Shown here piece by piece: positions 4,429 through 16,644 of a stretch of 24,923 bases of DNA. Both the position numbers and the translations under genes were made by a program. Origin of the DNA: a virus; IMG/VR virus record IMGVR_UViG_3300030688_000112, positions 1-24,923 of that record; one strand, 5' to 3'. Within the stretch, counting starts at the first letter, position 1. Each line of letters begins with the position of its first letter. A model generated the notes under the pieces. It was not told the DNA's origin and made no database searches. It saw only the letters and a list, made by a program, of their open reading frames with translations.

Positions 4429-4691
4429 CGCCCTGCCTTCTTTCCGCTCTTCATAGGATTGCGGCGCTCTGCTCGTGCTTGCTCCTCCAGCAGGAACTGA
4501 TAGCGATCCCGACCTATAGTTGTGAGTCTGTAGCTGTCCCCTGACCGGTAGACGATCAGGTTCTTTTCCATAAGCTTCTCCAGTGGTTTGAAGTCTTTAG
4601 GCCAGAACCAGTAAACCTTTTTGTCAAGCTCTGCTTTTCCAATGTCCATTAGGACTTCGGTCTGACGTGCCGAGTGCCGAGTCTTAGACAT
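4425..4691 (-). CDS. Winged-helix-like small protein (88 aa)
   Basis: Second gene of the leftward pair. Its ATG (4691-4689) overlaps the end of the HTH gene by 8 bases. The sequence 'FKPLEKLMEKNLIVYRSGDSYRLTTIGRDRYQFL' has the shape of a winged-helix recognition helix plus wing (LEK-..NLI-..-G-SYRLT--GR..). The C-terminus is very basic (RAERRNPMKSGKKAGR), consistent with DNA binding. I cannot name the family. Cotranscription with the upstream regulator suggests an accessory repressor, antirepressor or partner protein. It ends stop-to-stop against the rightward operon. Confidence 0.7.
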   Translation of the reverse strand: MSKTRHSARQTEVLMDIGKAELDKKVYWFWPKDFKPLEKLMEKNLIVYRSGDSYRLTTIGRDRYQFLLEEQARAERRNPMKSGKKAGR

Positions 4692-5148
4692 GGCGTGCGT
4701 CCCTCGCTGCGATCTCTTCTGACGTCAGGAGCATCTCGATGGTGCCTTCGTAGTCGTAGTCATCAGTGCGGGCATTGCCGAGAGCGTCGTCATCCCAATT
4801 ATCGTAATACCAGAACGGGATTCCTCGGGCTTTGGCTCGGACGATGAAGTCTGGGGTTCCGTCTGTCCAGAGGGCGGAGTATTCAGGTGGATCGGGGATG
4901 GGCATCGGCGGTGCTAGAGAATTGATGAGCGTAGCCTGGGCAAGCCGGCGTAACTCGTTCAGAACAGCCTTCCCAATGTCGGGGCGTCCGAGCAGATGCA
5001 GCAAGCGTTCGAGGGGTCCATTTACGGCACGTTCTCCTCGTCTAATTTTCGAGATGTGCCCTTGAGAGACACCTAGAACGAGCGAGGCGACGTTTTGGCT
5101 CTTTATGCCTATGGCATTGCAAGCGGCGATGAACTCTTCCGTGGTCAT
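4684..5148 (-). CDS. HTH (XRE/YdaS-type) regulator, candidate lysogeny-type repressor
   Basis: The start is ATG 5148-5146 (MTTEEFIAACNAIGIK), with GGAGAG upstream. An in-frame ATG further upstream, at 5187, would overlap the promoter region. Residues 15-50 form a helix-turn-helix: KSQNVASLVLGVSQGHISKIRRGERAVNGPLERLLHLL, of the type found in phage YdaS/XRE-like regulators. The C-terminal half is acidic (DDYDYEGTIEML), with no peptidase S24 Ser-Lys dyad visible, so it is not a classic self-cleaving CI. It is divergent from a large palindromic control region and sits near its own promoter at 5178-5206. Its targets could be the GTAAG-N5-CTTAC sites (inference). Confidence 0.75.
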   Translation of the reverse strand: MTTEEFIAACNAIGIKSQNVASLVLGVSQGHISKIRRGERAVNGPLERLLHLLGRPDIGKAVLNELRRLAQATLINSLAPPMPIPDPPEYSALWTDGTPDFIVRAKARGIPFWYYDNWDDDALGNARTDDYDYEGTIEMLLTSEEIAARDARHV

Positions 5149-5177
5149 TGTTGGTCTCTCCGTCGTGGTGGATAGCC

Positions 5178-5206
5178 AGAATGTCACGAGGTAGCGAATA
5201 TGTCAA
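5178..5206 (-). promoter_or_regulatory. Promoter of the leftward regulator pair
   Basis: On the minus strand TTGACA (5206-5201) is followed by 17 bases and CATTCT (5183-5178), 30 bases before the ATG at 5148. The same region carries a plus-strand extended -10, TGGCATAAT (5221-5229), which could drive a transcript in the opposite direction across the palindrome. The plus-strand element lacks a good -35. Confidence 0.45.
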
Positions 5207-5242
5207 TGGGTTAGTTAACGTGGCATAATCTGCTCCGGTTGT

Positions 5243-5569
5243 GTCCACTACGTCCATTTGGTGGGAAGACCCGTGGACGTAGGTTTTTCTTAGAGACTCC
5301 TGGCGCTCCGAGAGATTTTTAGTGTGCTGGGATTCTTCTTGTGAAAACGCTGGGAAAAGCGACATAGTATTCAAAGAAGTTGGAATACCCCATGAACTAC
5401 CCCTATAGGCCAGTCCACTGGGTATGCCATTGAATATGCCACCTTCCCTGAATACTATCCTCTTTTCTCTACCTCTTTTTCGATAAGGAATAAAAAATGA
5501 TGGAAATCTCTCGGAGCGCCAGGAGTCTCTAGCAAAAATCGCGTCCACTCGATATGGACGCAAGTGGAC
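5243..5569. repeat. ~330 bp imperfect palindrome with perfect 28-bp arms (control region, origin or MITE)
   Basis: The 28 bases at 5291-5318 are the exact reverse complement of 5504-5531. The same symmetry axis (near 5411) also pairs 5364-5373 with 5449-5458 (ATAGTATTCA / TGAATACTAT) and, less exactly, 5382-5401 with 5421-5440. Outside the arms, boxes of GTCCAC/GTGGAC (5243, 5251, 5273 and 5543, 5555, 5564) repeat in mirrored order with short indels. Over the ungapped 121-bp half, about 62% of positions are complementary. The whole lies in the gene-free space between the HTH regulator and the RuvC-like gene. Candidates are a replication origin, a repressor/partner-binding region, a structured RNA, or a MITE. 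The sequence alone does not decide. Confidence 0.85.
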
Positions 5570-5704
5570 GCTGTGGACAAACTCATGTTTAAAACATCAT
5601 TTACCATTTCTGTTCCATTCCTGAGACAGGAGGTGGTTTCACCCCCTGCGCCTGCCCTTCACCGAGGTGCGGAGGACGATCCCGATCGCCGGCTACCAGG
5701 AACG

Positions 5705-5959: not shown

Positions 5960-6478
5960 ATGGAACCGAACGCTTGCATCGCCGGAATTGACCCAGGCTC
6001 TAAAGGAGCGATTGCTTTCCTGTATCCCAGGCAAGGCAAGCTTGCGGTCTATGCCCTGCCGGTCACCAAGGTGGTTGGTAGCAGTCGCACGTTCACCTAC
6101 GCGGATGGTGCAGGTCTCGCTGCCTTGTGCAGGCTACACGCACCCGTCAAGGCATTCCTGGAGCGCGTTCATTCATTGCCCGGCGACGGTGCGGTTGGCG
6201 CGTTCATCTTCGGTGATAACTTTGGAACCATCAAAGGCGTGCTCGGAACGTTAGGCATTGAAACATACCAGATCGAACCGTCTGTCTGGAAGAAGACGAT
6301 GAAAGCGCCGGCTGACAAGGCTCTGTCCAGAAAGCGTGCCAACGACCTGTTTCCGGAGTGCGTCAAGCTCTTCACCCGTGCTGACAAGGCCGAGGCTGCG
6401 ATGATCGCACTTTACGGCTCGCTTCGGACGAATTGGATATTCGAGCGCATCCAACCGTGGAAGGAGCGCAACCAATGA
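5960..6478 (+). CDS. RuvC-like Holliday junction resolvase (phage/Pox A22-type)
   Basis: The ATG at 5960 follows GAGGTGG. The protein (172 aa) has the RNase H-fold first strand CIAGIDPGSKGAIAF (residues 6-20), with the catalytic Asp in GIDPG. A central 'FGDNFGTIKGVLGTLGIETYQIEPSVWKK' (residues ~76-104) is typical of phage resolvases. Near the end, 'TRADKAEAAMIALYG' carries D and E that complete the acidic site. Length and motif order fit the RuvC-like family of phages that resolve branched DNA before packaging. It heads the operon with terminase, which agrees with that role. The stop overlaps the next ATG (ATGA). Confidence 0.88.
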   Translation: MEPNACIAGIDPGSKGAIAFLYPRQGKLAVYALPVTKVVGSSRTFTYADGAGLAALCRLHAPVKAFLERVHSLPGDGAVGAFIFGDNFGTIKGVLGTLGIETYQIEPSVWKKTMKAPADKALSRKRANDLFPECVKLFTRADKAEAAMIALYGSLRTNWIFERIQPWKERNQ

Positions 6479-7092
6479 TCGCTGCGCTCTATGTTGAGTC
6501 GAACGGAACTTACGCCAATCTTCCTGGAGTCGATCTGTGGGATCGAGAGCGTGACGCGAGACTCTATTACGGGCCACACTCAGTCGTCGCTCATCCCCCA
6601 TGTCAGCTTTGGGGTAAATTTTGCCACGTAAACTACGCTCGTTGGGGCGGAGAGCACAACCGGCCTGGAAACGACGGTGGATGCTTCGAAGCAGCGCTTG
6701 CATCCGTCCGTAAGTGGGGCGGAATATTGGAGCACCCCGCATTCAGTAGTGCATGGGCTAAATACAATCTTCCACGTCCAACTGTAGTTGGGGATTGGCT
6801 CCGTGCTGCCCCTAGCGAGTATGTTTGCGAGGTCTGGCAAGTAGCATACGGACACAAAGCCAGAAAGAGAACGTGGCTATTCTATTGCGGAACTATCGCA
6901 CCTCCTGCAATGCGGTGGGATCGACCTGATGCATCCCATCAAATTGGTGGTCACGATCAGCGTGGAAAAGAGCGCAATAAGCCAACAATCAGTGGCAAAG
7001 CAGCAAGCGCTACGCCTACTGAATTTCGCGACGCACTACTGGCGATTGCCAGAGAGGCGCTCATCCGGACGTCGGAGGCTTCGCATGCCTGA
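6475..7092 (+). CDS. Phage DNA-methyltransferase-like protein, PPC-containing family
   Basis: The start at ATG 6475 overlaps the resolvase stop and follows AAGGAG. An ORF start at 6433 would overlap the previous gene. The protein (205 aa) begins MIAALYVESNGTYANLPGVDLW, then has 'YYGPHSVVAHPPCQLWGKFCHVNY' (residues ~36-58), 'NDGGCFEAALASVRKWGGILEHPA' and 'AYGHKARKRTWLFYCG'. I recognise this order from a common phage family often annotated as hypothetical or cytosine-methyltransferase-like. The HPPC motif resembles the catalytic PC motif of C5 methyltransferases, and GGILEHP resembles its neighbouring motifs. A full target-recognition domain is absent, so enzyme activity is uncertain. The family sits next to resolvase and terminase genes in other phages (from memory). 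Confidence 0.75.
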   Translation: MIAALYVESNGTYANLPGVDLWDRERDARLYYGPHSVVAHPPCQLWGKFCHVNYARWGGEHNRPGNDGGCFEAALASVRKWGGILEHPAFSSAWAKYNLPRPTVVGDWLRAAPSEYVCEVWQVAYGHKARKRTWLFYCGTIAPPAMRWDRPDASHQIGGHDQRGKERNKPTISGKAASATPTEFRDALLAIAREALIRTSEASHA

Positions 7093-7582
7093 GCCCTACA
7101 CCATCGAAGAGGTCGATCCGGATACCGATCTAAGAGCGTGGCAAACAATCATCCGCATGCACACGGTGACGCTGCCGGACGATCTGGTGCGTCTACCTGA
7201 CGATGGATGGTGGTTCATTGCCTACCAGGGTCTGGTGCCTGTTGCATATGCCGGGTTGACTGAGTTTGGCACGCGGAGCAAAGCAACAGGTAAGGCTCGG
7301 TTCACAAAGAAAACGGGACTCCTGACTCGTTCCGGCGTGCTCAACTCTCATCGTGGTCATGGATTGCAACGAGACCTCATCGCGGCTCGCATTGCGAAGG
7401 CTCAGACTCTGAAGTTCACCGAGCTTCGGTCGACCACCTACGACAACCCACACTCATCGAACAACCTCATCGCCTCGGGCTTCCGCATGTTTCGTCCTGA
7501 AGCTGGAACGTCGTGGGGATGCGAGGGAACGAACTACTGGCGCTTGAACCTGAAGGAACACACCAATGCCCGCACTGAATAA
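7085..7582 (+). CDS. GNAT-family N-acetyltransferase
   Basis: The start is ATG 7085 behind GGAGG (MPEPYTIEEVD). Longer frames from 6929 lack a ribosome site. The 165-aa protein has the core GNAT pattern: strands 'GWWFIAYQGLVPVAYAGLTEF', then 'TRSGVLNSHRGHGLQRDLIAARIAKAQ' with the acetyl-CoA binding loop R-GHG-Q (residues ~91-95), and 'STTYDNPHSSNNLIASGFRMF', the common N-x2-S-N-N-L...-GF motif. The substrate is unknown. GNAT genes near terminase genes are frequent in phages, where they may modify proteins or antibiotics. It overlaps the previous gene by 8 bases and the next by 17. Confidence 0.85.
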   Translation: MPEPYTIEEVDPDTDLRAWQTIIRMHTVTLPDDLVRLPDDGWWFIAYQGLVPVAYAGLTEFGTRSKATGKARFTKKTGLLTRSGVLNSHRGHGLQRDLIAARIAKAQTLKFTELRSTTYDNPHSSNNLIASGFRMFRPEAGTSWGCEGTNYWRLNLKEHTNARTE

Positions 7583-8135
7583 CGCCCGATGGGAGATGTA
7601 TTGCACGGGCATTGCACAAGGCAAGAACCAGATGCAGTCTTACAAAGACGCCGGGTTCTCTTCTGAAGGCCAAGGCAACGCAACCACATTATCGAAGCGT
7701 CCTGAGATCAAAGCGCGTGTCGCTGAGTTGATAGAAGAGCGCACTCAGTTCCGTGCCAATTACACACAGAACGGCAATCTCGAACATTTAGGTGAGATCG
7801 AGAATATGCTTGAGACTGGCGAAGTTGATCGACGCTGGGTCATGAAACACCTGATGGACAACGTCCGCGATGCTCGGGAAGCCGGCCAGTTCTCGGCGTC
7901 AAACAAGGCGCTGGAGATGCTCGGCAAAGAGATCGGCATGTTCCAAGAGAAGGGCAAGAAAGCTGACGACGATGAAGGCAAGAAAGCACTTCCACCTCCG
8001 GTGTCTGTCGAAAATATCAATCTGTTGCTGGACTCCGTTGGTTACAAAGGTCCACCTATCGACCTGACTTCCATCGCACTTCCCGCACTAACTGGGGAGA
8101 AGACTCATGGCAATTCTAAGTCTGCACGATCGTGA
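7566..8135 (+). CDS. terS: Terminase small subunit
   Basis: The ATG at 7566 follows AAGGAAC. The 189-aa protein has an N-terminal DNA-binding region: 'NARWEMYCTGIAQGKNQMQSYKDAGFSSEGQGNATTLSKRPEIKARVAELI' (residues 6-57), the typical Terminase_2-like pattern with helix-turn-helix. A central helical region (ENMLETGEVDRRWVMKHLMDNVRDAREAGQFSASNKALEMLGKEIGMF) fits the oligomerisation segment. The tail is acidic and prolin-rich. It recognises packaging DNA and hands it to the large subunit. It overlaps the large-subunit gene by 29 bases. The family call is from pattern recognition. Confidence 0.85.
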   Translation: MPALNNARWEMYCTGIAQGKNQMQSYKDAGFSSEGQGNATTLSKRPEIKARVAELIEERTQFRANYTQNGNLEHLGEIENMLETGEVDRRWVMKHLMDNVRDAREAGQFSASNKALEMLGKEIGMFQEKGKKADDDEGKKALPPPVSVENINLLLDSVGYKGPPIDLTSIALPALTGEKTHGNSKSARS

Positions 8136-9867
8136 ACAATCCAGGCTTGCGGTATCACGCTTAGCGAGCCTACTGGAGACAGTCGAGAACGCGCTTGAAC
8201 GCGGAACCGAGATCAATCCAGAGGTAAAGTTTCTACTCGGTCAGGTCACTCAATCTGATTCGATCGATACGCAACACAACGCGATCAGTGAATGGCTAGA
8301 CAACACACGCCAGGACTATCGCGAAAAGCTGCGAGGCAGCGCTCAGAACAGCCTGTCCTGCTTCGCTGAGTTCATGAACATGGAAGAGCCTCCAGCCTTC
8401 CATCATGACTGGATGTGTGAGCGCCTGGAACTGGTTGCCACCCGCAAGATCATGCGGATGATTCTGAGCATGCCGCCTGGGCACGCAAAATCGACTTACT
8501 GCACCCACCTGTTTCCAGCATGGTATCTCGGAAAATATCCCAAGCACAAATACATCCAAGCAGGGCACACGCAAGACTTTGTCGATGAAGAGTTTGGTAA
8601 AAAGGTTCGAGGCATTATTGACAGCGAAGACTATCGCGAGGTGTTCCCAGAAATTAGACTTGATCCTGGCTCGAAAGCTGCCTCGCGGTTCGCTTTGGCG
8701 AAGTTCAAAGGCAAGTATCTCGGTCGCGGTGTAGGACAGGGCATCTCCGGTTTCCGTGCAAACATCGCTGCGGTAGACGATCCGTTCGCAAGCCGAGAAG
8801 ATGTTGAGAGTCCGACAACCAGAAAGAAAGTATTCGACTGGTTCATGGCGGATTTGACTACGCGACTTCTACCAAGGAGTCCGCTATTCGTGGTTGCAAC
8901 ACGATGGCATTCTGATGACCTGTGCGGGCGACTTGAAGCATTAAATGCAAAAGGACTTGGTATTCCTTGGGAAGTAGTTAACCTTGCTGCAATATCGGAA
9001 GGTATAAACGATCCATTAGGCCGGGGACCCGATTTACCATTGTGGCCCGGGTTCTACGACCTGGAGCATTTACTTAATCTCCGATCAACTCTACCTGCCC
9101 GTGACTGGAATAGCCTCTACCAGGGAAAGCCCATGGACGAGGCGGGCGGGTCGTTTCAGGTCGAATGGGTCCACCGATACACTGATTATCCCAAAAATGA
9201 TGTCAATGATCAGGGTGTGGTCTCTAAGATCAATATCCGCCGCATGGTTGTTTCTGTGGATTGTGCGAGCAAAATCGGAGAGCGGAACGACTACACGGTC
9301 ATTGGCGTCTGGATCGAAGACCTGAATCGGAAGCACTACCTCGTCGACGTCGTCCGGAAGCGTCTGGAGTTCAACGAGATGGTAACCACGATCGAGGACA
9401 CGGCGACCAAGTGGAACAGGCTCATCCCAGGCACTCAGGTCGCCGCCATCCTGGTCGAGGACAAAGGGTCGGGAACCCAATACATCCAGACCCGCAAGGC
9501 TCTGGCACCCGCTCCAGTCATCGCCATCGAGGTAGGCACAAGCAGCAAAGAATTCCGGTTTGACGGCGTCTGCCCGATGTTCGAAGGCGGTGAGGTGTTC
9601 TTGCCGTCCGCTACCGGCTGGCTTCCCGACTATGAACGGGAGCTTCTGGGCTTCCCCTACGCCAACCATGACGATCAGGTGGACATGACGTCGCAATACC
9701 TCGCCTGGGCGCGTGTGCGACGTGCTGGTGGCACCAGGAAGCTCGGCGGCAACGCTGTGTCTGCGCAATCCACTCCCCGAGGCGGACGACGCATGGGCGG
9801 CTCCCGTGGTGCTGGTAACTTTGCCGGCTCCAATCAGCATACGCCTAGCTCCAAGATCGCTGGCTGA
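8107..9867 (+). CDS. terL: Terminase large subunit (ATPase-nuclease)
   Basis: The ATG at 8107 has GGGGAGAAG upstream. The 586-aa protein carries an ATPase: Walker A PPGHAKST (residues 123-130), Walker B-like region IAAVDDPF (220-227) and coupling motif ATRWHSDDL (264-272). The RNase H-like nuclease follows: D385 in VSVDCAS, ED at 451-452 in ILVEDKGSG, and HDDQVD (521-526). All motifs are intact. It translocates phage DNA into the prohead and cuts it. It overlaps TerS by 29 bases. Unusually, the portal gene does not follow but lies 12.3 kb downstream. Confidence 0.95.
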   Translation: MAILSLHDREQSRLAVSRLASLLETVENALERGTEINPEVKFLLGQVTQSDSIDTQHNAISEWLDNTRQDYREKLRGSAQNSLSCFAEFMNMEEPPAFHHDWMCERLELVATRKIMRMILSMPPGHAKSTYCTHLFPAWYLGKYPKHKYIQAGHTQDFVDEEFGKKVRGIIDSEDYREVFPEIRLDPGSKAASRFALAKFKGKYLGRGVGQGISGFRANIAAVDDPFASREDVESPTTRKKVFDWFMADLTTRLLPRSPLFVVATRWHSDDLCGRLEALNAKGLGIPWEVVNLAAISEGINDPLGRGPDLPLWPGFYDLEHLLNLRSTLPARDWNSLYQGKPMDEAGGSFQVEWVHRYTDYPKNDVNDQGVVSKINIRRMVVSVDCASKIGERNDYTVIGVWIEDLNRKHYLVDVVRKRLEFNEMVTTIEDTATKWNRLIPGTQVAAILVEDKGSGTQYIQTRKALAPAPVIAIEVGTSSKEFRFDGVCPMFEGGEVFLPSATGWLPDYERELLGFPYANHDDQVDMTSQYLAWARVRRAGGTRKLGGNAVSAQSTPRGGRRMGGSRGAGNFAGSNQHTPSSKIAG

Positions 9868-10601: not shown

Positions 10602-10744
10602 CTCGACTCCAAAAACTGCCACAGGCACTATTTTTAGGCGCAACGCCTGTTTAGAGACGCCGACACCAGCTTCGACGACGTCAGGATATCACGAGGCATT
10701 CCGCTCTGCTAGTTTTCATTATGCAACCATCCCGCGTTTTTGAT

Positions 10745-10883
10745 GGACATTTTCGGGGTCGATACATCATTTTTGCGGTGGAATCCTGGAGCCGGGTTGC
10801 CATTTTTGCTATTTCGATGAGGATTCCCCGGGTCGGAGTCTCATTTTTGCTCAGGAATCCTGGAGTCGGTTTCTCATTTTTGC
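10745..10883 (+). repeat. Four ~30-bp tandem repeats ending CATTTTTGC
   Basis: Units lie at 10745-10776 (divergent, 32 bases), 10780-10809, 10821-10850 and 10854-10883 (30 bases each). Consensus is GGAATCCYGGAGTCGG at the 5' side, 3-5 variable bases, then TCATTTTTGC. Spacers are 3, 11 and 3 bases, so units step by about 33-35, 41 and 33 bases, i.e. close to whole helix turns. This suggests same-face protein binding (iterons or operators). Confidence 0.75.
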
Positions 10884-11110
10884 TATACGCAGCCCTCCTG
10901 GGGTCACCCAGGTAGCGCGCACCCCCCGCTCCGCCCGCGCGGAGCATGATCCCCCTGCGGGTGCTTCTCCCGCCCCGTCCGCCGGGGCCACGCGTGGCTC
11001 TCGCTATGTGTCTGCCGTCCGATCCTACGCCATGGGCGCGGGTGGTGGCGGCTTTGGCTTGGCGCGATGTCTGGGTGGGTGGCTTCCTTTCGTCCTCTTC
11101 AATAAAAGCA

Positions 11111-11570: not shown

Positions 11571-11578
11571 TGGATTAA

Positions 11579-11644
11579 CCTTGCTTCCTGCTAGGTTGGC
11601 ACGATGCCAGCCTATGAAGAAACAAGGCGGACGAGTCCGCCTTG
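11579..11644 (-). repeat. 66-nt RNA switch-like element, copy 1
   Basis: In leftward RNA, CAAGGCGGA-CTCG-TCCGCCTTG forms a 9-bp terminator-like hairpin followed by TTTCTT. A second stem TAGGCTGGCA / TGCCAACCTA (one C-A mismatch) follows, then the Shine-Dalgarno region AGGAAGCAAGG, 8 bases before the start at 11570. The 3' arm of hairpin 1 plus its T-run (CCTTGTTTCTT) is complementary to the SD region (with G-U pairs), so hairpin 1 and SD-sequestration exclude each other. Confidence 0.85.
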
Positions 11645-11650
11645 GATCGA

Positions 11651-11890
11651 TCACGTTGCGTTGTTTCGTTCGTTCCCATGCTCGCATGCCAGACAGATCA
11701 CAGTGACGATTGTGTCACCATCTTGGCTGACTTCTGCATCGTCCGCGAGCGGTGCGCCGCACGCGTCGCAAACGTCCGGCTTGTTCGATCCTTCCTCTTC
11801 TGTGGCAATGTCCGCCACAGCCTGAATTACCCTGACGAGTCCGTAAGACCTAATCAGCGACGCAAGAGCCTGATATTCAAAGTCAGTCAT
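11651..11890 (-). CDS. Zinc-ribbon small protein (79 aa)
   Basis: The start is ATG 11890-11888 (MTDFEYQALASLIRSYG), 6 bases after the AAGG of element copy 2. An in-frame TTG at 11896 is an unlikely alternative. Residues 43-73 contain CDACGAPLADDAEVSQDGDTIVTVICLAC: two CxxC pairs 23 residues apart, a zinc ribbon. The N-terminal half is an amphipathic helix pair. The protein probably binds nucleic acid or another protein through zinc, but I cannot name a target. It lies between element copies 2 and 1. Confidence 0.75.
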   Translation of the reverse strand: MTDFEYQALASLIRSYGLVRVIQAVADIATEEEGSNKPDVCDACGAPLADDAEVSQDGDTIVTVICLACEHGNERNNAT

Positions 11891-11896
11891 GTGCAA

Positions 11897-11962
11897 CCTT
11901 GCTTCCTGCTAGGCTGACACGATGCCAGCCTATGAAGAAACAAGGCGGACGAGTCCGCCTTG
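11897..11962 (-). repeat. 66-nt RNA switch-like element, copy 2
   Basis: This copy differs from copy 1 by two bases, one in each position of the second stem (G-U instead of a pair). The terminator-like hairpin, its T-rich tail and the SD-containing segment are unchanged. It lies between the genes 11969-12202 and 11651-11890. Confidence 0.85.
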
Positions 11963-11968
11963 GATAGC

Positions 11969-12202
11969 CTAAGCTATCATCGCCTTTAACTCAGTCTTGA
12001 CACGCCGCGCGACATCTCCGCGCCATGCGGCGGCATTGCTTAGGAAATACCGCACGATGACGCGCGCATTGTCCATCTCATAGCGATCCGACACGGAGTC
12101 CAGCGATTGCATGGCGGACAGATACGGGACTGCGCCAAAATAGACCTTTTTCCAATCGGCGCGAATCTCGCGGGCGATAGCGGCAATAGAGCGTGTGGAC
12201 AT
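11969..12202 (-). CDS. Conserved small phage protein (77 aa), 'RSIA-IAREIRADW' type
   Basis: The ATG (12202-12200) lies 8 bases after the AAGG of element copy 3. The protein is MSTRSIAAIAREIRADWKK followed by VYFGAVPYLSAMQSLDSVSD, a tyrosine/aromatic centre and a basic C-terminal helix (ARRVKTELKAMIA). I recognise 'RSIA-IA-EIR-DWK-..-FGAVPYLDAM-SL...VRYFLSNA--WRGD-ARRVK-ELK' as a small family of phages and actinobacterial/proteobacterial prophages, with function unknown to me. The invariant W and YF-NA-WRG core is intact. It stands between switch elements copies 3 and 2. Confidence 0.8.
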   Translation of the reverse strand: MSTRSIAAIAREIRADWKKVYFGAVPYLSAMQSLDSVSDRYEMDNARVIVRYFLSNAAAWRGDVARRVKTELKAMIA

Positions 12203-12210
12203 GAGATTGA

Positions 12211-12276
12211 CCTTGTTTCCTGCTAGGCTGGCACGATGCCAGCCTATGAAGAAACAAGGCGGACGAGTCCGCCTTG
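12211..12276 (-). repeat. 66-nt RNA switch-like element, copy 3
   Basis: In this copy the SD segment reads AGGAAACAAGG, so it pairs with CCTTGTTTCTT without the G-U at the sixth position. The second stem TAGGCTGGCA/TGCCAGCCTA is perfect. The terminator-like hairpin is identical to the other copies. It lies between genes 12281-12505 and 11969-12202. Confidence 0.88.
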
Positions 12277-12280
12277 AGTC

Positions 12281-12505
12281 CTACCGTTTCACCTTGCCTA
12301 AGCGTATCCGGCGGACAAGTTCGCGTTCCGCATCTTTCGCGCGCTTTTGTTCCGCCTTGTTTGTTGGAGTCATGGAAAAATCAGCGTTATCACGTTCATC
12401 CGCCCGAATGATCCAAATCAATTCGGATACTCGCAAACGCGGCAGCGCAACGTTATTGATACGATTAACCCAAGCGTTGAATTGTGCGTCGGTTTGCCTT
12501 GCCAT
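12281..12505 (-). CDS. Basic hypothetical protein (74 aa)
   Basis: The ATG (12505-12503) lies 9 bases after the AAGG of element copy 4. The protein is MARQTDAQFNAWVNRINNVALP and later RVSELIWIIRADERDNADFSM, ending in a strongly basic helix 'NKAEQKRAKDAERELVRRIRLGKVKR'. It is likely helical. A DNA/RNA contact is plausible from charge but not demonstrated. I do not recognise the family. It is flanked by copies 4 and 3. Confidence 0.7.
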   Translation of the reverse strand: MARQTDAQFNAWVNRINNVALPRLRVSELIWIIRADERDNADFSMTPTNKAEQKRAKDAERELVRRIRLGKVKR

Positions 12506-12514
12506 GATGCTTAA

Positions 12515-12580
12515 CCTTGTTTCCTGCTAGGCTGGCACGATGTCAGCCTATGAAGAAACAAGGCGGACGAGTCCGCCTTG
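12515..12580 (-). repeat. 66-nt RNA switch-like element, copy 4
   Basis: Like copy 3, with a single base change in the second stem that gives an A-C mismatch. The terminator-like hairpin and the SD-complementary segment are identical to the others. It separates genes 12587-12775 and 12281-12505. Confidence 0.88.
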
Positions 12581-12586
12581 CGTGTA

Positions 12587-12775
12587 TCACTCCGCCGGCT
12601 TTACCTTCGCCTTAGCGAAATACAGCGATCCACCAAAACGACCGACACGGAAAAAATGAAGCGCGCCGACTCGCTTGTAAGATGCTTTAGGGAAAGCAAT
12701 CGGCGCGATGTATCCGGCGGCAAAAAAGGAAAGTCCCGACAGAACAGCGATGTGGGGAAGGAAGGAATTCAACAT
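12587..12775 (-). CDS. Small protein with N-terminal hydrophobic segment (62 aa)
   Basis: The ATG (12775-12773) overlaps the TAA of the upstream gene (TAATG) and follows GGAG. The N-terminus MLNSFLPHIAVLSGLSFFAAG is a single hydrophobic segment (membrane or signal-anchor). The rest is basic with 'YKRVGALHFFRVGRFGGSLYFAKAK'. That pattern (RRGALRFLRIGRFGFSF) occurs in small phage proteins I have seen, with no known role. It is translationally coupled to the gene upstream and followed by element copy 4. Confidence 0.72.
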   Translation of the reverse strand: MLNSFLPHIAVLSGLSFFAAGYIAPIAFPKASYKRVGALHFFRVGRFGGSLYFAKAKVKPAE

Positions 12776-15444: not shown

Positions 15445-16644
15445 TCAGGGAACCACTCGGGTAGCCATACAATTATATAGCCACCGTATCTCGTGTATAT
15501 TTATTTTATTAGATTTTTTGTTATTATCTCTTTCGGGAACAATCCTGAGATTGCCCTGGACGTGCAGACCAGTTACAGGCCAACTATCCTCTCCGTCCGT
15601 CACGATACCTTTCAGAGGGATGATGTGGTCGACGTTGTTCTGCCAGCCGGTTATGTTGGAGAGAGCGCGAGACTCTAGATAAATCTCAGACATCTCGATA
15701 AGCGAAGCCCACGCAGGTATCTGCCTCTTGTCGTATCCTGGCTTCTTCCATTTCAACTTAACAGCGTCTCTCGCTGGAGACGGGGAGCCCCATTCGCTGT
15801 TGTATTCCCGATTTTTCGTTAGCACTCTATCAGCATATAAGGGATCGAGTTCTCTCCTTTCCTGGACTCTTCTTCTGCGTCTCTTCTCGTTTTCTTTATT
15901 CTTCTCTGGATTATTAAGTTTCCATCTCCGGTTGTGTGCCATTATTTTGGCTATTTGACTCTCGGATAATTCCGAGAAAGGTTTTTTCTTCTTATTCTTC
16001 TTTCTAGACTTTATGTTCCGACACTCCACACATGTGTTCTTGGTAACTGTCCTCTCTGATACGTGACCATACACGCAAGGAAGCCCGGTGAAATAGCGCA
16101 CCAACCCGCGCTCTCTCGCAGAGCCTGCACCGAATATATGCGGAAGTGGGTTGTCACATGTGAACCTTGAACTCTCCGCCACCCGGCTGCGGGGGAGCGC
16201 CGCATCAAACAATCCGTCCAGCGGATCATCGACAGGAACCATAGGAGGAACCACACGGAGTTTCTTCCCTAGCTTGACCTCGTGGTGCGTCAATCGCGTG
16301 CATTCACAGCACACGCCTCCATTCGTATATCGAGCCGCCATGTGCCCATAGATGCAGGGCGTCCCAGTGAAATAGCGCTTAGCGCCAAGTTCAATGGCGG
16401 TATCTTTAGTCGTCGGGAGGGTTGTCTTGTCCTCTACAGGACGGAACTTTGGGACGTAGTTATCACGCCGATATTCGCGCATCCTAACGAGTCTCCGCTC
16501 TCTCGCAGCAGGCGACTCCACCTTCGTAGGCTCGTAAGAACCTTGATAGCACTTTACGCACGCGTTTGTGGCGGCGTATCTACCTGCGTTGTGACCATTC
16601 GGGCATGCCTCTCCCGTGTAAATCCTGGCGCCGTCATCCGTCAC
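15445..16644 (-). CDS. HNH endonuclease with three N-terminal Cys/His modules
   Basis: The gene starts with GTG (16644) behind GGAAGG at 9 bases. The 399-aa protein has three copies of a treble-clef-like module: CPNGHNAGRYAATNACVKC, CIYGHMAARYTNGGVCCEC and CVYGHVSERTVTKNTCVEC (near residues 14, 95 and 190), each with a preceding YFTG-PC or IYTGEAC. A lysine-rich linker follows. The C-terminal HNH-like domain has 'VDHIIPLKGIV' and 'VTGLHVQGNLRIVPERDNNKKSN'. Such multi-Cys HNH proteins are typical phage homing or free-standing endonucleases. It lies alone, leftward, with lower GC than its neighbours, which hints at recent insertion. The target site and activity are unknown. Confidence 0.82.
   Translation of the reverse strand: MTDDGARIYTGEACPNGHNAGRYAATNACVKCYQGSYEPTKVESPAARERRLVRMREYRRDNYVPKFRPVEDKTTLPTTKDTAIELGAKRYFTGTPCIYGHMAARYTNGGVCCECTRLTHHEVKLGKKLRVVPPMVPVDDPLDGLFDAALPRSRVAESSRFTCDNPLPHIFGAGSARERGLVRYFTGLPCVYGHVSERTVTKNTCVECRNIKSRKKNKKKKPFSELSESQIAKIMAHNRRWKLNNPEKNKENEKRRRRRVQERRELDPLYADRVLTKNREYNSEWGSPSPARDAVKLKWKKPGYDKRQIPAWASLIEMSEIYLESRALSNITGWQNNVDHIIPLKGIVTDGEDSWPVTGLHVQGNLRIVPERDNNKKSNKINIHEIRWLYNCMATRVVP

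Follow-up and report, generated by a model that had tools for sequence, protein, structure and literature searches.

The window analysed here, a 24,923-nt stretch of viral DNA (positions 1–24,923 of IMG/VR record IMGVR_UViG_3300030688_000112), was confirmed to contain one imperfect palindrome at 5242–5579, built on a single axis near 5410.5–5411 and located between a leftward HTH gene (4684–5187) and the rightward RuvC-TerS-TerL operon (5960–9867). Palindromes of the same form, with sequence unrelated between lineages, recur upstream of the terminase large subunit gene (TerL) in relatives. We regard the chance as even that a large tailed phage uses the element as an iteron-type origin for bidirectional replication. 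Somewhat short of even stands the wider proposal of a novel origin class, in which oriented initiator boxes would be arranged in mirror symmetry over ~300 bp and the melting element would lie away from the axis. Phages of the Mwe-JY26, RXM and L041 types would have kept such an origin next to the RuvC-terminase operon; the recognition word would have been replaced wholesale between lineages while the arms stayed matched, amounting to rapid initiator-site co-evolution. The initial annotation had placed the palindrome between an HTH regulator and a RuvC-late operon; the position stands, whereas "late" is better read as the packaging operon (RuvC, TerS and TerL). The features are as follows.

4684..5187, minus strand: HTH protein matching the transcriptional regulators of phrog_638 (E 2.8e-4); by inference, a candidate for the regulator or initiator that would bind the boxes.
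5201..5213, plus strand: IHF-like site with one mismatch to the consensus, just outside the left end; the window has one such site.
5242..5579, unstranded: whole imperfect palindrome (minus-strand self-match, 129 bits, 341 columns, 65% identity).
5243..5278, unstranded: left outer box cluster, GTCCA at 5243 (+), 5252 (+) and 5274 (−).
5284..5318, unstranded: left main arm, perfect over 5291–5318.
5364..5402, unstranded: left inner arm, 39 nt, 74% complementary to 5420–5458.
5413..5417, plus strand: single GTCCA box at the axis.
5420..5458, unstranded: right inner arm, pairing with the left inner arm 5364–5402.
5451..5510, unstranded: weakest 60-bp duplex near the palindrome by nearest-neighbour energies, on the RuvC side; candidate melting element.
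5504..5538, unstranded: right main arm, perfect over 5504–5531.
5543..5578, unstranded: right outer box cluster, GTCCA at 5543 (+), 5555 (−), 5565 (−) and 5574 (−).
5960..6478, plus strand: RuvC-like Holliday junction resolvase, the first recognised gene of the packaging operon (phrog_1770, E 3.6e-25).
7566..8135, plus strand: terminase small subunit (phrog_11494, E 3.9e-16).
8107..9867, plus strand: terminase large subunit (phrog_38, E 5.7e-106).

The self-match of the palindrome scores 129 bits, compared with a maximum of 26.9 bits in 40 dinucleotide shuffles of the upstream 7 kb. Its 35-nt main arms (5284–5318 and 5504–5538) are 94% complementary, and the 28-bp arms described in the initial annotation (5291–5318 and 5504–5531) are indeed exact complements, as is the inner block ATAGTATTCA (5364–5373 and 5449–5458). 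The further block reported at 5382–5401 and 5421–5440 is present but imperfect, the 39-nt arms that enclose it being 74% complementary. A shared axis without indels had also been claimed: one axis near 5411 was found, but the mirrored GTCCAC/GTGGAC boxes, which do lie outside the arms as described, have a coordinate sum of 10821 and the inner blocks one of 10822, giving one 1-nt offset over 338 nt. The axis itself is unmatched (0 of the 7 positions nearest to it), and some of the 20-nt bins separating the kept blocks are near random.

The closest relative of the window TerL is that of Microcystis phage Mwe-JY26 (54% identity), followed by those of the large alphaproteobacterial phages Lacusarx, DSS3P8, RcXuper and RXM and, farther away, of Caulobacter phages such as J4; the window RuvC has distant relatives in the phiCbK group. 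The window represents part of a large phage whose relatives include Mwe-JY26 and Lacusarx and, at a greater distance, phiCbK. A search with RuvC alone yielded only a near-identical contig (L013/L003, IMGVR_UViG_3300028909_000099; TerL 100% identical) that begins inside RuvC, at about window position 6316, and therefore cannot show palindrome variation in that population. No relatives of the HTH protein were found among viral contigs, a PDB sequence search with it found nothing, and its model, predicted alone, was poor (pLDDT 43) and was not used. Bacterial genomes were uninformative, giving one partial terminase relative from 74 candidate stretches. The long terminal repeat of phiCbK (PMC3556154) and that of J4 begin at the 3′ end of terL, kilobases from the gap, and that of Lacusarx adjoins the terminase genes (PMC5648845). 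If the window is built like these phages, its terminal repeat probably occupies the 12 kb from TerL to the portal gene, and the palindrome lies upstream of the packaging genes, away from the repeat boundary so placed.

Some other features of the window were noted. At 11575–12590, an 80-nt unit occurs in four copies (88–100% identical) with a spacing of ~310 nt, three of them directly upstream of small minus-strand ORFs (starts at 11896, 12202 and 12505); one copy folds 5.7 s.d. below shuffles into two hairpins. Situated in what is probably the terminal repeat, this unit looks like a repeated structured leader or a cassette of terminator and promoter. At 10738–10885, a 74-nt unit is present twice, head to tail, with 74% identity between the copies. 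A 399-aa protein encoded on the minus strand at 15445–16644 matches phrog_1081 in three stretches and also has a match of the endonuclease VII type, and would consist of repeated domains plus a nuclease.

A check proposed in the initial annotation was a search for homologous palindromes in related phages. Loci were taken from terminase relatives and named phage regions, 23 being dropped as at least 90% identical in TerL; of the 46 non-redundant loci, 37 with at least 2.3 kb upstream of TerL were examined, and nine were dropped for too little upstream sequence. A palindrome was called where, in the 7 kb upstream or the available part of it, the span was at least 120 nt and the score beat all 40 shuffles of the same DNA. 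On this definition a long palindrome was called upstream of TerL in 15 of the 37 loci (the window, L004, L005, L009, L014, L015, L018, L020, L041, L045, L046, L056, L058, L064 and L115); the form is kept, and the sequence is unrelated between lineages. Twelve of the 15 stand clear of the shuffles, and L005, L009 and L018 exceed them by a smaller margin; the highest scores are those of L064 (213 bits) and L058 (140 bits). No long palindrome was found upstream of TerL in the other 22 loci. Among 12 records scanned whole or nearly so, of which G010, G013 and G015 are mutually close relatives, no long-span palindrome outranks the site in 11, and in G006 it comes second. The sequence differs from lineage to lineage, and the architecture is common: short repeated boxes that often change direction at the axis, arms that change together, a weak A+T-rich duplex and, with modest support, IHF-like sites.

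Two of the loci without an upstream call, L017 and L032, were observed to have a strong palindrome downstream of TerL instead. Strong palindromes of 130–170 nt lie ~1–1.3 kb downstream of TerL in L032 (12916–13086), L017 (10080–10226) and L020 (12871–13002), near where the phiCbK and Lacusarx repeats start, and are possibly packaging or repeat-duplication sites. In 16 loci, a conserved gene of phrog_11118 lies between the gap and RuvC (e.g. L056:7327–7905, L009:5478–6077 and L083:10261–10965). Its predicted structure (mean pLDDT 87.5) combines a helical domain with an SH3/KOW/Tudor-like barrel, the best structure match having a Z of 9.2 over 56 residues with an rmsd of 1.4.

Within 5242–5579, GTCCA/TGGAC occurs in eight copies, compared with 0.96 expected from the window count. 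The order is mirrored, two of three boxes pointing one way on the left and three of four the opposite way on the right, with one on the axis. The words differ among lineages (GTCCA in the window, GTCCAA in L004, GGTCC in L014, GTGAC and GTGCTATTCTT words in L064, ATGTAAC in L017), and their direction flips near the axis in L004 (four, then five), L064 (five, then five), L017 (three, then six) and, with one exception, L014 (seven, then seven). In L020 and L056 the boxes alternate in direction; L005 has four in one direction and a single opposed box. In L004, L014 and L017, boxes are directly repeated within one arm. When 22 gaps were tested, the top word beat the best same-locus control window only in L014, L017 and L056; in the other gaps, that of the window included (14.5 vs 20.4), it stays below the control, so that these are no proof by this test. 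Lineages without a called palindrome often contain mostly one-way arrays. One such word is CATCACG/CGTGATG, present seven to nine times in the gaps upstream of RuvC in L006, L023, L032 and L052, with almost every copy pointing the same way; in the Lacusarx group this may be the one-sided equivalent of the mirrored array. At 6228–7160 of L056, GGTGTA words occur 18 times; their direction alternates at intervals of about 45 nt along 0.9 kb, and several inverted repeats overlap there. This array is an expanded version of the element.

The two arms were also observed to change together. Co-changes were counted as columns in which both arms share one base in phage A and another in phage B; among the six related loci L041, L046, L047, L049, L058 and L115, the count exceeded the largest shifted-arm control in 15 of 15 pairs, which are non-independent and whose alignment is uncertain at such divergence. 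Between L046 and L047, five columns co-changed and 44 keep arm-specific differences; this count, although small, speaks for selection on particular words and disfavours wholesale copying from arm to arm. The initial annotation had taken the mixture of kept and decayed blocks to suggest selection on particular segments, and the relatives bear this out.

IHF-like sites were sought with the consensus WATCAANNNNTTR. Perfect matches occur in the mirrored arms of L004 and also in L014 and L056. Allowing up to one mismatch, the 15 palindrome regions, which include these three loci that suggested the motif, contain 34 sites compared with 12.6 in shuffles, none of 200 shuffles reaching 34. In the 12 held-out palindromes, among them L009 since its palindrome is called, there are 17 sites compared with 9.5 (7 of 300 shuffles reach 17), with no perfect match. 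The gaps of 12 lineages without a called palindrome contain 16 compared with 9.0 (6 of 150 shuffles reach 16). These counts give modest support for IHF-like sites as part of the element. DnaA sites are not enriched in the 15 regions.

Duplex stability was calculated from nearest-neighbour energies. In the window, 5451–5510 ranks third, two weaker duplexes lying near 15496 and 16721. In nine of 14 records (RXM, G010, G006, G002, G020, Lacusarx, DSS3P8, RcXuper and phiCbK, with G002 and G020 being partial contigs), no 60-bp duplex anywhere in the record is weaker than one found within 700 bp of the gap. Relative to the axis, the weak duplex is on the side of RuvC in 11 of 12 records, three of which are close relatives. 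Of 28 loci with sufficient sequence, 23 have the weakest stretch of the whole locus within the 4 kb preceding RuvC; part of this is expected because this region makes up at least a fifth of most loci and holds the main non-coding gap. The A+T content was above that of the own locus in all 12 palindromes examined.

The GC skew, another check that had been proposed, gave a divided answer. An extremum lies within ~1 kb of the gap in five of 14 records (Mwe-JY26, RXM, G006, G018 and Lacusarx), but it is a maximum in four of them and a minimum in one, and others show no match: no extremum was found near the gap in four near-complete genomes (DSS3P8, RcXuper, phiCbK and the L115 contig) or in the partial contigs of L064 and L045. 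Since a GC-skew maximum by the usual convention marks the terminus, skew alone cannot decide between origin and terminus. The strongest local skew shift of the record falls at the palindrome in RXM and G006 (5- and 10-kb arms), in the window (5-kb arms) and in G012 (10-kb arms); in Mwe-JY26 it lies ~1 kb away, and in G010, G015 and G018 the two coincide only with 15-kb arms. The annotated genes of Mwe-JY26 run in the same direction on both sides of the site, so gene direction does not explain the skew switch there.

How might such a site operate? In the proposed mechanism, mirrored arrays of short oriented boxes (of the GTCCA type in the window) would be occupied, to the left and right of the axis, by an initiator that the phage encodes; IHF or another architectural protein would bend the arms, and the complex would melt the weak duplex, mostly on the RuvC side. 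Replisomes would then load both ways, since the boxes point both ways. The anatomy is read as that of an origin because oriented mirrored boxes, a weak duplex, IHF-like sites, a non-coding syntenic position and a partial composition switch come together; we infer that the boxes are protein sites, which protein would occupy them, that IHF takes part and that this is where replication begins. The origin reading is held at an even chance because no initiator protein was identified, with the phrog_11118 gene that adjoins the gap in relatives being absent from the window, because the skew is equivocal, and because a transcription-control array explains much of the same evidence. Further points against it are the 22 of 37 loci with no long palindrome upstream of TerL, the two weaker duplexes elsewhere in the window, the lack of DnaA-site enrichment and the absence of a perfect IHF match from the 12 held-out palindromes.

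Such an array would exert symmetric transcription control, the boxes being operators or activator sites for the HTH neighbour or another phage regulator that switches the packaging operon on the right and the leftward genes on the left. This is a possibility to be taken seriously, if hardly a probable one. The HTH gene adjoins the element in the window and in L018, gene blocks diverge at the gap in many relatives, and in the L041 family, four loci (L041, L046, L047 and L049) have a TTGACA-like word beyond the left arm; boxes, concerted arms and A+T richness suit operators equally, and weak duplexes are also expected at promoters. However, the weakest duplex of a whole genome of 100–215 kb exceeds what a promoter needs, and a promoter scan gave a single promoter-like site near the element, at 5200–5229 and outside it (two in the region vs 1.0 expected). 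In Mwe-JY26, where the genes flanking the gap share one direction, a divergent promoter pair is not needed, and the skew switch would be left unexplained. Both the replication-origin and the regulator-binding-array options of the initial annotation survive and gain support from the conserved position and architecture in relatives, from the oriented boxes, from the weakest duplex in many relatives and from the skew switch in some. A terminus, recombination or packaging nucleoprotein site, where boxes and IHF would arrange the DNA so that RuvC and terminase can process concatemers, seems improbable. The RuvC and terminase genes adjoin the gap in the window and in relatives, the skew maxima would suit a terminus, and IHF-like sites are present; yet the precise skew match in some genomes is not typical of a terminus, and the mapped ends of phiCbK lie within terL and ~10 kb downstream, not at the gap (PMC3556154).

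The two other options raised in the initial annotation lost ground. It is quite unlikely that the element works as a long hairpin RNA or a cruciform, through its transcript or its extruded strand. Its RNA fold lies 12.3 s.d. below shuffles on one strand and 11.7 s.d. on the other, although this is expected for any palindrome, and the concerted arm changes preserve pairing. The window gave no Rfam match at the gathering threshold, however; the decayed bins between kept blocks and the unmatched axis fit poorly with a pairing function, which also has no need of boxes repeated directly within one arm, as in L004, L014 and L017. That a mobile element of the MITE or fold-back type has inserted itself here is barely credible: the long inverted repeats with boxes at the ends resemble one, but the palindrome is single-copy (the search of all 24,923 bases on both strands returned only its self-match), the 28-nt arm was found by exact search in no viral contig, and DNA similarity gave no match among phages or plasmids. 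An 18-nt core was found in three viral contigs, by rough estimate about the chance level. No direct repeat was seen by eye at the palindrome ends, and unrelated sequence of the same form occupies the same place in distant phages.

If the origin reading is correct, a large group of environmental phages would gain an origin open to testing, the predictable form could serve to locate origins in phage contigs from metagenomes, and the matched site variants would make up a natural series for following initiator specificity. If the element is instead a transcription switch, the packaging genes of these phages would be controlled from it. No account of the element was found in a limited literature search with little subscription coverage, which is not proof that it is unpublished, and the available portions of the Lacusarx (PMC5648845) and phiCbK (PMC3556154) accounts name no replication origin.

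The element shares parts with several known systems. CtrA-site gap regions of alphaproteobacterial phages are large non-coding gaps, often between divergent gene blocks, in an overlapping phage set that includes Lacusarx and the phiCbK group (PMC9437464). Although the gap is of the same type, the 15 element regions are not enriched in the CtrA consensus TTAA-N7-TTAA (0 perfect sites vs 1.5 expected; with one mismatch, 20 vs 23.6 in shuffles). Protelomerase targets such as N15 tos are likewise large palindromes with nested inverted repeats on one axis, whereas the axis of the element (0 of 7 positions) has no perfect palindrome; a protelomerase site is unsupported, and no protelomerase gene over the cut-off was found in any of 22 records, mostly fragments and including that of the window. 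In herpesvirus-type origins, a palindrome contains mirrored initiator boxes around a core on one axis; the element is much larger and imperfect and has its weak duplex off the axis, and the likeness is one of structural analogy only, with no kinship implied. Iteron-type origins of plasmids and phages (R6K, pSC101 and lambda ori) share with the element repeated oriented short boxes, an adjacent weak A+T-rich stretch and IHF-like sites. Their boxes are mostly direct repeats, whereas those of the element, for which no initiator gene was identified, are mirrored on one axis over ~300 bp. Overall, the parts are of known kinds, and what appears new, within the limited search, is their mirror-symmetric ~300-bp form with lineage-specific words at one kept place.
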